NCBI GenBank assembly: GCA_020440025.1
Contig: JAGROX010000058.1
Coordinates: forward strand, 7,122 to 59,645
DNA length: 52,524 nucleotides
DNA from: Verrucomicrobiia bacterium
GTDB taxonomy: Bacteria; Verrucomicrobiota; Verrucomicrobiia; Verrucomicrobiales; DEV007
Direction: 5' to 3'
This document shows, one piece after another, positions 5,399 through 49,477 of this stretch. The notes beneath the pieces are model-generated. The model saw only the letters and a program-made list of their open reading frames with translations. It ran no database searches and was not told where the DNA came from. Within the stretch, counting starts at the first letter, position 1, and each line of letters starts with the position of its first letter. The position numbers and the translations under genes were made by a program.

Positions 5399-5445
5399 AC
5401 CCGGCCACCGGCACTCAAGGGACTGAGCGCCCTAAGCGCCCTACC
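5399..5445 (+). repeat. Dispersed intergenic repeat, copy 1
   Basis: The core CCACCGGC(A)CTCAAGGGACTGAG followed by GCCCTA is shared with copies at 45044-45084 and 49436-49477 (minus) and, more weakly, 17086-17135. This copy has a small internal duplication (GCGCCCTAA then GCGCCCTAC). All copies are intergenic. Confidence 0.65.
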
Positions 5446-40789: not shown

Positions 40790-41605
40790 TCAGGCATTTT
40801 CTTCGATCCTGCTGATGGCGTCCGCGAGCGCCTGGTCCTCCATTTCAATGAGGTGACTCTGATCCGGAAAACGTCCCTCTCTCACATCGGCGATATATTC
40901 ACTGAAAGCGGCCACCCTTTCCTGCTGAAGTCGCCGGTATTCCTCGACAAAGTTGCGATAGGCCTTGGCATGGCGCGGGAGGCGTTCGTCGTAGTCGCCT
41001 AGAATGTCGCATGAGAAGAGAAACTGGGTATCACACCCCGTTCCGGAACCCAATGACATCAGCAACATCGAGGTCTTCGAGCAGAGATAGGTCGCCAATT
41101 GATGAGGCACGACTTCCAGTTCCGCAGCGTAGGCGCCCGCGCTCTCCAGTTCTTTCATCCTGTCGTAGATCTGACGGGCTTCGTCGGCGGTTCTTCCCAT
41201 CGCCCGGTAGTTCGTCCAGGTAACGTGGCGCGGCACCAAGCCCAGATGCCCGACGACCGGGATGCCCTCGCGCGCCATCGCCTCGATGATGAAAGGACTG
41301 GCCGAGCAATAGACCGAGCTAGCCCCCAGTTCCAGCGCCTGAAAGCCGATCCGAATCGCTTCTTCCTGTGAAGCCATGCCGTGGGGAGTGGCCGCCGAAA
41401 GAAAGCTGCTGGGTGCCGCCTCAACCAGCTTCGGCAAACGGGCCTGGGCCTCCGGTGAATCAAAGCTGCAGCTCATCAAATCCACGCCCGCCTGTTCTGC
41501 CGCAGTGGCCTCCTCGGGCGATTTCACATGGATGTGGGTCAGACAGCGTTTGCCCTTCAGCTGCCGGAGATCGTAAACGGTATATTTTTTGCGGGGACGA
41601 AGCAT
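40790..41605 (-). CDS. PanB-like protein lacking the usual metal ligands
   Basis: 271 residues from ATG 41605. Resemblance to ketopantoate hydroxymethyltransferase is clear in overall length and in YTVYDLRQLKG, GIPVVGHLGLVPRHVTW, GAYAAELEVVP, LLMSLGSGTGCDTQFLFSCD and ILGDYDERLPRHAKAY. The region that in PanB is VGDSLG reads SCSFDSPE, the DLPF-type region reads LSAATPHG and the KxEG region reads VYCSASP, so three metal ligands appear replaced. The catalytic Glu (AAELEVVP) is kept. It may act on another substrate or have lost activity. A pantothenate role should not be assumed. Monocistronic or last gene before the esterase. Confidence 0.75.
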   Translation of the reverse strand: MLRPRKKYTVYDLRQLKGKRCLTHIHVKSPEEATAAEQAGVDLMSCSFDSPEAQARLPKLVEAAPSSFLSAATPHGMASQEEAIRIGFQALELGASSVYCSASPFIIEAMAREGIPVVGHLGLVPRHVTWTNYRAMGRTADEARQIYDRMKELESAGAYAAELEVVPHQLATYLCSKTSMLLMSLGSGTGCDTQFLFSCDILGDYDERLPRHAKAYRNFVEEYRRLQQERVAAFSEYIADVREGRFPDQSHLIEMEDQALADAISRIEENA

Positions 41606-44999: not shown

Positions 45000-45302
45000 C
45001 TGCTTCAAATTCAGATTTCTAAATCCCAGATCCGAAACGCCAGGTCATCCGCCCACCGGCGATCAAGGGACTGAGAGCCCTACCACAAAAAAAGGCGCGA
45101 CGGGACGGCAAAGGCCCAAAACCCGAAACTGAACCCTGTCAGTTCGCGGAATTAACCCTGTTAGGTGCCAGCCCCAATGGAGGGAACCCTGAAAAACCAA
45201 GGATGCCTTAAGCCCCCTGTTCGGTCATTTCTGAGCCCCTTTGGCCTCAGGTGTTTGTTCGGCGCGACGGTCTGCTATTTGAGGGCCTGGATGCCACGCA
45301 AC
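45000..45302. other. Non-coding stretch with repeat copy
   Basis: About 300 nt holding the dispersed repeat at 45044-45084 and two AACCCTGT motifs 17 nt apart near 45134 and 45151. A 102-codon plus-strand frame here has no recognisable content and opposes the gene at 45303, so I leave it uncalled. Confidence 0.5.
45044..45084 (+). repeat. Dispersed intergenic repeat, copy 2
   Basis: GTCATCCGCCCACCGGCGA followed by TCAAGGGACTGAGAGCCCTACC. The 14-nt core TCAAGGGACTGAG-GCCCTACC matches copies at 5399 and 49436 (minus). It is preceded by AAACGCCAG, shared with the diverged copy at 17086. Confidence 0.7.
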
Positions 45303-45671
45303 TCAAATCCCGATCATCTCAATGCTGGAATCAAAATTCATCTTCCGGAAAATTTTCCGCATATTCTTGATCTCAGCCTTGTCAATCTGGCGAATCGAAA
45401 GTTCATAGGTTTGTTTGTCGCATTGCAATTCAATCGTTTCGGCAGCTTCATCGAAGGAAACTTTTCGAAGTAACGATCGGCCGTCGTCAACGGGATCAAG
45501 GTCGAACGAAACGGTTGCTCCGCGCTCCCATTCATCAAGAAAGCGTTCAAATTTCGGAGTTCGCATGGCAATGAGGCTTTGCACCTGACTCGGACTATCC
45601 TGATCGGCTACCGCGAACGCCACAATCAGATCCGTTCCAGATTCACAGTCGATGAATGATATGCGATGCAT
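45303..45671 (-). CDS. Small protein of unknown function in AT-richer patch
   Basis: 122 residues from ATG 45671; an ATG 39 nt earlier (45710) or a TTG between them, after GGAGG, are possible alternatives. The peptide is well formed: charged and hydrophobic residues alternate (FIDCESGTDLIVAFAVADQD, FERFLDEWERGATVSFDLD) and it ends MNFDSSIEMIGI. The region is visibly richer in A/T than its surroundings, suggesting recent acquisition. No signal peptide. I recognise no family; compact cytosolic proteins of this look include immunity proteins, which is only a guess. A 17-bp palindrome lies 35 nt upstream. Confidence 0.6.
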   Translation of the reverse strand: MHRISFIDCESGTDLIVAFAVADQDSPSQVQSLIAMRTPKFERFLDEWERGATVSFDLDPVDDGRSLLRKVSFDEAAETIELQCDKQTYELSIRQIDKAEIKNMRKIFRKMNFDSSIEMIGI

Positions 45672-45705
45672 TTTTTCGCACAACAATATGACAATACCTC
45701 CGTGC

Positions 45706-45722
45706 GGCATATCTGATATGCC
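45706..45722. promoter_or_regulatory. Palindromic operator candidate
   Basis: GGCATATC-T-GATATGCC is an exact palindrome with a one-base centre, 35 nt upstream of the small gene starting at 45671. The related half-site CGATATCAGGGCATACC follows at about 45731. Size and place suit a dimeric repressor such as an autoregulator. Confidence 0.5.
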
Positions 45723-46207: not shown

Positions 46208-47308
46208 TTAGGGCGTTTTCTCGGGGGGGATGACGACCCGGAAGCCGATACGGCTATTTTTTAACTGGGGATCGTTGCGACCGCGGGAGGCGGCGCGGAG
46301 GTAGTCGGTCTTGGCGAACCAGCAACCGCCGCGATAGCTGCGCTGTTCGCCCTGGGCGGGGCCCGAGGGATCGCGCCCGCCGGGGAGTTCGCTCTGAAAC
46401 CAATCGAGACACCATTCCCAGAGATTGCCGTGCATGTCGTAGAGGCCCCAGGGGTTGGCTTTTTTCTGGGCGACGACATGGGGTTTGCCATCGCTGTTGT
46501 CCTGGTGCCAAGAGATGTCGTCGGCTGACTGTCCCCCAAAAGGCTTGTCGCCGCCAGCGCGGCAGGCGTATTCCCACTGGGCTTCGGTGGGCAGGGTGTA
46601 GATCCAACCTTTCGGCAGGGTGCCGGCATCGCGTTCGCGCCGGGTGAGGGCGTGGCAATAGGCAATGGCATCGCCCCAGGTGACCTGCTCCACGGGTGCC
46701 TGGGGGCCGAGGCCTTTGAAGTAGGAGGGATTGGACCCGATGACGGCTTGGTATTGGCCTTGGGTGACTTCCGTGCTGCCGATCCAGAAGCCGCGGCTGA
46801 GCTCGACTGGCGCCTGGGCTTCCTCGGGACGTCGCCCTTTCTCTTTGGCGGGGCTGCCCATGACGACATCGCCCGAGGTGAATCCGGACCGCGGGTCGGC
46901 GGCAATGGAGATGGCGTGGGCGGGCAGGAGTTTTCCGCCGTGGTGATGGAGGTATTTCTCGATTTCCATTCCGTCGATGAACTCCATGACGAGATAAAGC
47001 TGCCCGCCGGAGGTCTCACCAAAGTCGTAGACGGAGAGGATCGCGGGGTGATCGAGGTTGGCCATGGACTGGGCCTCGAGATTGAAGCGTTCGACGAACT
47101 GGAAGTGGTCGTCGGCGTCGGAGAAGCTTTCCGGCAGGATTTTGATGGCGACATTTCGCATCAGTTTAATCTGACGCCCCTGATAGACGGCTCCCATCCC
47201 TCCGCGTCCGAGCATGGCGCTGATCTCATACTGTGGCAGCAGAGCGTGGAGTTCTTCGATGGTGGGCGGGATCCACGCGGTGAAGTCGTCTTTGTCAGTG
47301 GCACTCAT
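46208..47308 (-). CDS. Protein kinase N-lobe fused to formylglycine-generating-enzyme domain; kinase C-lobe missing
   Basis: 366 residues from ATG 47308. Residues 28-136 are a serine/threonine kinase N-lobe: glycine loop GRGGMG (34-39), VAIK lysine at 56, helix-C glutamate near 78, and hinge YLVMEFIDG. The sequence stops matching a kinase after HAISIA (about residue 136): the HRD loop, DFG motif and activation segment are absent. It passes in frame into a sulfatase-modifying-factor (FGE/SUMF1) domain at about residue 143: GSPAKEKGRRPEEAQAPVEL, STEVTQGQYQAV, LPTEAQWEYACRAGG, GLYDMHGNLWEWCLDWF and SYRGGCWF. Normal homologues keep a full kinase between the two parts. It cannot phosphorylate; the FGE-like part may still fold. 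Confidence 0.85.
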   Translation of the reverse strand: MSATDKDDFTAWIPPTIEELHALLPQYEISAMLGRGGMGAVYQGRQIKLMRNVAIKILPESFSDADDHFQFVERFNLEAQSMANLDHPAILSVYDFGETSGGQLYLVMEFIDGMEIEKYLHHHGGKLLPAHAISIAADPRSGFTSGDVVMGSPAKEKGRRPEEAQAPVELSRGFWIGSTEVTQGQYQAVIGSNPSYFKGLGPQAPVEQVTWGDAIAYCHALTRRERDAGTLPKGWIYTLPTEAQWEYACRAGGDKPFGGQSADDISWHQDNSDGKPHVVAQKKANPWGLYDMHGNLWEWCLDWFQSELPGGRDPSGPAQGEQRSYRGGCWFAKTDYLRAASRGRNDPQLKNSRIGFRVVIPPEKTP

Positions 47309-48268: not shown

Positions 48269-48359
48269 CGCTCTCTCCCCCTTGACCTCCGGGGATTTCC
48301 CCGGCATCGTCGCGGACACTTTTCTTTTTTCTCCCAAAACCAAAACCACATATAGAAAG

Positions 48360-49238
48360 ATGGCAGACCTCGATGACATCCGCGACGGCGACAACTTCGG
48401 CCTCAATTCCCCGGCCGACACCAGCTCGTTTTACCTGAAGGGACTCAACAACTCCAGCTGGGGCATTAAGAACCGTGTGTCGCGGATCTTTAACCGCAAG
48501 TCGGGCCGCACGGTGATGCTGGCGTTTGACCACGGTTTCCTCATGGGACCAACCTCCGGCTTGGAGCGAATCGACCTCACGATCGCTCCGCTCGCCGAGC
48601 ACGCCGACTGTCTGATGGCGACTCGTGGCATGATCCGCAGCTGCATCCCGGCAGACAACACCAAGCCGATTTGCCTGCGCACGGACACCGGCACCACCAT
48701 TCTCACGGAGATGAATCACAACGTGCTCATCGACGAAGCCGAGGCCATCAGCATGAACGCTTCCGCCATGGCAGCGATGATTGCCGTCGGTGACCCGGCC
48801 ACCGAGGCCTCCACCATCGCCAATATTAGCCGTTTGGTCGATATCGGGCAGAAATACAGCATTCCGGTGATGGGTGTGACCGCCGTGGGTAAAGACATGG
48901 CCCGCGACGCGCGTTACTTCAGTCTCGCTGCCCGAGTGTGTGCGGAAAATGGAGCCAGCATCGTGAAGACCTATTACACCGAAGGTTTCGAAAACGTCGT
49001 CGCTTGCACCCCGGTCCCCGTGGTGATTGCCGGCGGCAAGAAGCTTCCGGAACTGGAAGCGCTCGAGCTCGCCTACAACGCCATCCAATGCGGCGCCGCC
49101 GGTGTCGACATGGGCCGGAACGTTTTCCAATCCGATGCGCCCCTCGCCATGATCAAAGCAGTCGCCGGGGTGGTTCACGATGATCTGAAGCCCGCCGAGG
49201 CATTCGATCTCTATGAGACGCTGAAGAACGAGGGCTGA
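48360..49238 (+). CDS. lsrF: LsrF-type class I aldolase/thiolase family protein
   Basis: 292 residues from ATG 48360, with AGAAAG just before it. Opening MADLDDIRDG and the motifs RIFNRKSGRTVMLAFDHGFL, MGPTSGLERIDLTIAPLAEH, GVTAVGKDMARDARYFSLAAR, VKTYYTEGF, VVIAGGKKLPELEALEL and GVDMGRNVFQSDAP match LsrF and related DhnA-type class I aldolases; the Schiff-base lysine is in IVKTYY. LsrF cleaves processed phospho-AI-2 in enteric bacteria. No lsrABCDKRG genes are near, so its substrate here is uncertain; the symbol reflects family only. Followed by a strong terminator. Confidence 0.85.
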   Translation: MADLDDIRDGDNFGLNSPADTSSFYLKGLNNSSWGIKNRVSRIFNRKSGRTVMLAFDHGFLMGPTSGLERIDLTIAPLAEHADCLMATRGMIRSCIPADNTKPICLRTDTGTTILTEMNHNVLIDEAEAISMNASAMAAMIAVGDPATEASTIANISRLVDIGQKYSIPVMGVTAVGKDMARDARYFSLAARVCAENGASIVKTYYTEGFENVVACTPVPVVIAGGKKLPELEALELAYNAIQCGAAGVDMGRNVFQSDAPLAMIKAVAGVVHDDLKPAEAFDLYETLKNEG

Positions 49239-49383: not shown

Positions 49384-49477
49384 GCGAGGGACCGCACGCC
49401 CTACCGAAATTGGTGGGCATCGAGTGGCTCGGGAAGGTAGGGCGATCAGTCCCTTGAGCGCCGGTGGCCGGATGATC
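49384..49477. repeat. Dispersed repeat as an inverted pair
   Basis: The minus-strand copy at 49436-49477 reads GATCATCCGGCCACCGGCG then CTCAAGGGACTGATCGCCC and TACC, nearly identical to copies 1 and 2. A partial plus-strand copy (AGGGACCGCACGCCCTACC, about 49386-49405) lies about 30 nt away in the opposite direction, so the two could pair into a large hairpin. Just downstream is the stop of the minus-strand secreted protein gene (49479). Confidence 0.65.

Follow-up and report, generated by a model that had tools for sequence, protein, structure and literature searches.

A kinase N-lobe is joined in frame to an FGE-like domain

The window, the whole 52,524-nucleotide stretch of Verrucomicrobiia DNA that we analyzed, carries a 366-amino-acid ORF on its reverse strand that starts with ATG and has no internal stop codon (Table 1). 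Two Pfam profiles match this ORF. Pkinase aligns with residues 27-125 over profile positions 1-94 of 263 (E = 4e-13), and FGE-sulfatase, the formylglycine-generating enzyme family, aligns with residues 145-359 over profile positions 10-254 of 255 (E = 2e-42). Alignment with intact kinases also placed the hinge in the N-lobe, next to the motifs listed in Table 1. At the DNA level, the alignment with intact kinases breaks off abruptly at codon 138 (window position 46895), and the homology to FGE starts at around residue 145. In the protein alignment, the kinase homology is gone after '...AISIAA', where the intact kinases go on '...HVLDALDYAHSHGIVHRDIKPANIL'.

A sequence-only reading of this DNA had described a kinase N-lobe fused in frame to an FGE domain, with no HRD or DFG motif and a junction near 46895. 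The Pfam boundaries and the uninterrupted frame agree with that description, and the proposed junction coincides with codon 138, the exact end of the kinase DNA alignment. The same reading held that a protein is made, which is probable given the preserved open frame. The half-kinase/FGE architecture is a real feature, far beyond chance.

Table 1. Positions of the chimeric ORF and its parts in the window
Feature	Window position	Strand	Evidence
Chimeric ORF, kinase N-lobe plus FGE-like domain, 366 aa	46208..47308	(-)	ORF and Pfam
Hanks-type kinase N-lobe, residues 27-138, ending ahead of helix E	46895..47230	(-)	Pfam Pkinase/PK_Tyr_Ser-Thr; identity to kinase L004; PknB alignment
Glycine-rich loop GRGGMG, residues 34-39	47192..47209	(-)	Alignment of five intact kinases; invariant except residue 35
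VAIK lysine K56	47141..47143	(-)	Alignment with five intact kinases
Helix-C glutamate E78	47075..47077	(-)	Alignment with five intact kinases; pairs with the corresponding PknB Glu
Junction PRSGFT, residues 139-144, fitting neither parent	46877..46894	(-)	Kinase DNA match stops at codon 138; FGE match runs from residue 145
FGE-sulfatase-like (C-type lectin fold) domain, residues 145-359, without the first strand and the catalytic Cys pair	46232..46876	(-)	Pfam PF03781; PDB TvpA/SUMF1 alignments; Foldseek

The chimera lacks the kinase C-lobe, a transmembrane helix and the FGE cysteine pair

Neither the Pfam profile nor an alignment with five full kinases revealed HRD, DFG or a C-lobe in the chimeric ORF. 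The bilobal kinase fold is not kept, and Pfam, the alignment and an AlphaFold model all leave the N-lobe alone. Intact relatives have a transmembrane (TM) helix after the kinase domain; the chimera has none, with a maximum 19-residue hydropathy of 0.65 versus 2.3-2.8 in full kinases. Residues 145-359 retain the FGE-sulfatase fold according to Pfam, alignment with SUMF1 and TvpA, and Foldseek, for which 2y3c (TvpA, C-type lectin fold) was the top match. The first strand of the FGE fold ('MxLCWIPAG') is missing, homologues reading 'MKLCWIPAGTFTMGSP' and the chimera 'PRSGFTSGDVVMGSP', and the segment CWFAKTDYLRAASR has no Cys at the positions of Cys336 and Cys341 in SUMF1 YMCHRSYCYRYR. The AlphaFold model was mostly confident for the cores of the N-lobe and of the FGE part, and gave a pLDDT below 50 for the linker at residues 112-145, which comprises the helix D region and the junction.

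Because the TM helix, the C-lobe and the catalytic cysteines are all absent, we infer from the sequence that the product would be a soluble, cytoplasmic and enzymatically dead protein, active neither as a kinase nor in generating formylglycine. An active Hanks-type kinase was rejected since the glycine loop, the VAIK lysine and the helix-C glutamate are present but the C-lobe with HRD and DFG is missing. The FGE fold is present without its catalytic Cys pair, and the domain is therefore not an FGE enzyme. A kinase-TM-FGE receptor kinase was ruled out by the lack of a TM helix between the kinase part and the FGE part. PADLOC kinase matches (PD-T4-6) reflected generic N-lobe similarity only.

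The sequence-only reading had also offered a pseudokinase that uses nucleotide binding to control the FGE-like domain. Without its C-lobe, a kinase N-lobe has neither a floor to its ATP pocket nor the machinery for catalysis; with no closed nucleotide pocket, nucleotide control is unlikely. The single lobe, the linker predicted to be disordered and the missing FGE cysteines lend this proposal little support.

The chimera was found in one genome, on a segment that appears to vary within the genus

Across 387 genomes of the order, the chimera's own window was the only place where a match spanned both halves (residues 1-366) at E ≤ 1e-62; scoring covered the best five candidates per genome, and any protein carrying both halves would be expected at the top of these. 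When an 87-amino-acid junction peptide was searched against 384 genomes of the class, a set overlapping the former, all matches were on the kinase side and none extended beyond residue 60 of 87. No syntenic full-length copy was found in 34 relatives via the two flanking genes, and the right-hand neighbor, an aldolase gene (48282-49238), adjoins other DNA in same-genus genomes.

Several features of the surrounding DNA were recorded alongside. Two genes of the window (at 5.7-6.9 kb and 48.4-49.2 kb) are separated by ~1.3 kb of different DNA in two genomes of the same genus (G001 and G003). Here, a ~41-kb segment (window about 6940-48360) that includes the half-kinase gene sits between them. This segment resembles a variable insertion site or the outcome of a large rearrangement. 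A REP-like dispersed palindromic repeat, GGTAGGGCNNNCNGTCCCTNG, occurs at window 5416-5436, 45045-45084, 49385-49405 and 49436-49475, and at 30 sites in the genome with at most one mismatch versus 2 for a reversed control. Two of its copies, in opposite orientation, flank a 4.4-kb region with the half-kinase gene. The ORF at 40790-41605 is panB-like, scores 105 bits versus the curated PanB cut-off of 272, aligns mostly with the C-terminal portion of the profile, and appears divergent or truncated. A 135-amino-acid ORF at 45303-45710 has no significant family match and a third-position GC content (GC3) of 0.51 versus 0.69-0.77 in its neighbors; it may be foreign or no gene.

Close relatives of the two halves lie in different proteins

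Over residues 12-137, the N-lobe shares 67% identity with an intact kinase of the same genome (L004 on contig C21); this kinase is followed, past an assembly gap, by an ORF whose three FGE domains are distant from that of the chimera. A kinase of this type (65% identity), again with three distant FGE domains, was found in another genome of the bacterial family (G004, L162). Overall, the nearest N-lobes lie in kinases with three distant FGE repeats (~28% identical) or with none. The nearest FGE domains of the same genome, at 51-52% identity, belong to two non-kinase proteins on contigs C243 and C372 with signal-peptide-like N-termini, and the closest secreted non-kinase proteins overall reach 52-53%. 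On the opposite pattern, a further family member (G005) encodes kinase-TM-FGE proteins (L180) with a close FGE (52%) and a distant kinase (28%). Among relatives more broadly, G027 has single ORFs of 1695 and 2462 amino acids (L182 = G027:C128:1-6000; G027:C4), each with at least six tandem FGE-like domains.

Kinase-FGE fusions as such are ordinary in this bacterial family, and the intact kinase-TM-FGE proteins, including those of G005 and G004, have the same domain order as the chimera. These facts would suit an in-frame deletion inside a complete kinase-TM-FGE receptor kinase, the sequence-only reading having offered a fresh deletion as one option. Comparison with the full-length homologues fixed the endpoint at codon 138; however, no single intact protein combining a close N-lobe with a close FGE was found in the chimera's own genome (87% complete) or in the relatives searched. 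A 65% kinase pairs with ~28% FGE domains, and a 52% FGE pairs with a 28% kinase. We therefore regard deletion within one such gene as possible but rather unlikely as the specific route. A fusion of two genes would be at least as likely as a deletion within one, and both are possible.

Conserved positions are kept in both halves

Of the positions invariant in six intact kinases, 4 are changed in the N-lobe, including one at the break, and the intact kinases themselves deviate at 0-5. In the FGE part, 1 of 48 conserved columns is changed, compared with 0-7 in other FGE domains. Judged by these positions, neither half shows signs of pseudogene decay. Because conserved positions are kept in both halves, either the event would be recent or both halves would still be used and selected, and the pattern fits either case. 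In a triad comparison, the N-lobe has 28 unique amino-acid changes versus 8 and 10 in two full kinases, so its branch is the faster one; the branch length is 0.36, versus 0.11 and 0.15 for the two nearest relatives, and two other full kinases have 0.38 and 0.39. With this faster branch, and an FGE parent no closer than 53%, the fusion event could also be old.

Retention of conserved positions is also what a functional one-lobe regulator or adaptor would show, in which the N-lobe dimerizes with the C21 sister kinase and the FGE-like domain serves as a cytoplasmic binding module. PknB L33 and D76, which we take to be back-to-back dimer contact positions, align with L49 and D95 of the chimera, and AlphaFold predicts a folded N-lobe core. 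However, these dimer residues are conserved across the whole kinase family and are nothing special to the chimera, which is known from a single genome, and an isolated N-lobe exposes a face that is normally packed on the C-lobe. We consider such a regulator improbable. Slightly less probable still is the specific form in which the bare N-lobe is a stable module, pairing with the sister receptor kinase while the FGE-like domain acts as a cytoplasmic regulator or decoy.

The junction is unlikely to stem from assembly

The evidence comes from a single MAG contig of 59,645 bp, part of a 500-contig, 87% complete bin, and this fragmentation with a single witness would suit two genes having been joined in silico at the junction. 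Against this, the window has no Ns, the two halves meet in frame, which chance alone would give one time in three, GC3 is alike in both (0.76 and 0.77), and the two parents are not homologous at the junction. A search of the genome at E ≤ 1e-3 turned up no other copy of the junction DNA; being single-copy, it offers no repeat to cause a collapse, so the collapse near the junction that the sequence-only reading had raised is not indicated. An assembly chimera is thus very improbable.

A variable protein of a diversity-generating retroelement (DGR; TvpA-like) was rejected, with no template repeat and no DGR-type reverse transcriptase (RT) in the 87% complete genome: the C-terminal 221 bases have no genome copy beyond 21-base matches and no local repeat either, and the sole full-length RVT_1 match, which carries a QGGPLSP motif, resembles the RTs of group II introns.

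DISCUSSION

We favor, as the probable explanation, a recombination or deletion product of one lineage in which a gene for a PknB-like membrane receptor kinase contributed its 5' end, and the 3' part of an FGE-sulfatase-like domain was joined to this in frame. The FGE-like part may derive from another gene or from the kinase gene itself. The joined product would be soluble and cytoplasmic, and would have neither of the parental activities. If any activity is left, the likeliest would be pairing of the N-lobe with the intact sister kinase through a PknB-type back-to-back contact, or binding of a ligand or protein by the lectin-fold domain. Most likely, the chimera arose as a one-off from gene families that are both ordinary and abundant, and is not a new kind of enzyme.

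If the protein were stable and used, it would show that a kinase N-lobe can persist as a module by itself, an unusual case given that pseudokinases normally retain both lobes. Otherwise, it is a clear case of reshuffling among the kinase and FGE-like genes that abound in Verrucomicrobiota. The chimera also gives cause for caution, in that a Pkinase match over one third of the profile does not make a kinase.

Our literature search found no paper joining protein kinase, FGE-sulfatase and Verrucomicrobia. A kinase-FGE fusion has been described in Chlamydia trachomatis, namely Pkn1 (PMC3581485). Like Pkn1 and the L180 and L162 proteins, the chimera has its kinase part N-terminal and PF03781 C-terminal, and its N-lobe is of the same subfamily as that of L162. 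It differs from the PknB-like kinase-FGE proteins in lacking the C-lobe with HRD and DFG, the TM helix and the long interdomain linker. Residues 145-359 find their best sequence and fold match in TvpA (2y3c) and PvdO (5hha), non-catalytic FGE-like proteins of the C-type lectin fold that likewise lack the catalytic cysteines of SUMF1. Unlike these proteins, the chimera is without the first strand, has a kinase N-lobe ahead of the domain, and was found with neither a template repeat nor a DGR-type RT in the 87% complete genome. With the bacterial Ser/Thr pseudokinases (reviewed in PMC12599244), it has in common a kinase homology without the catalytic Asp; however, those proteins retain both lobes, whereas the chimera consists on its kinase side of the N-lobe only, with the ATP-site lysine and glutamate intact.
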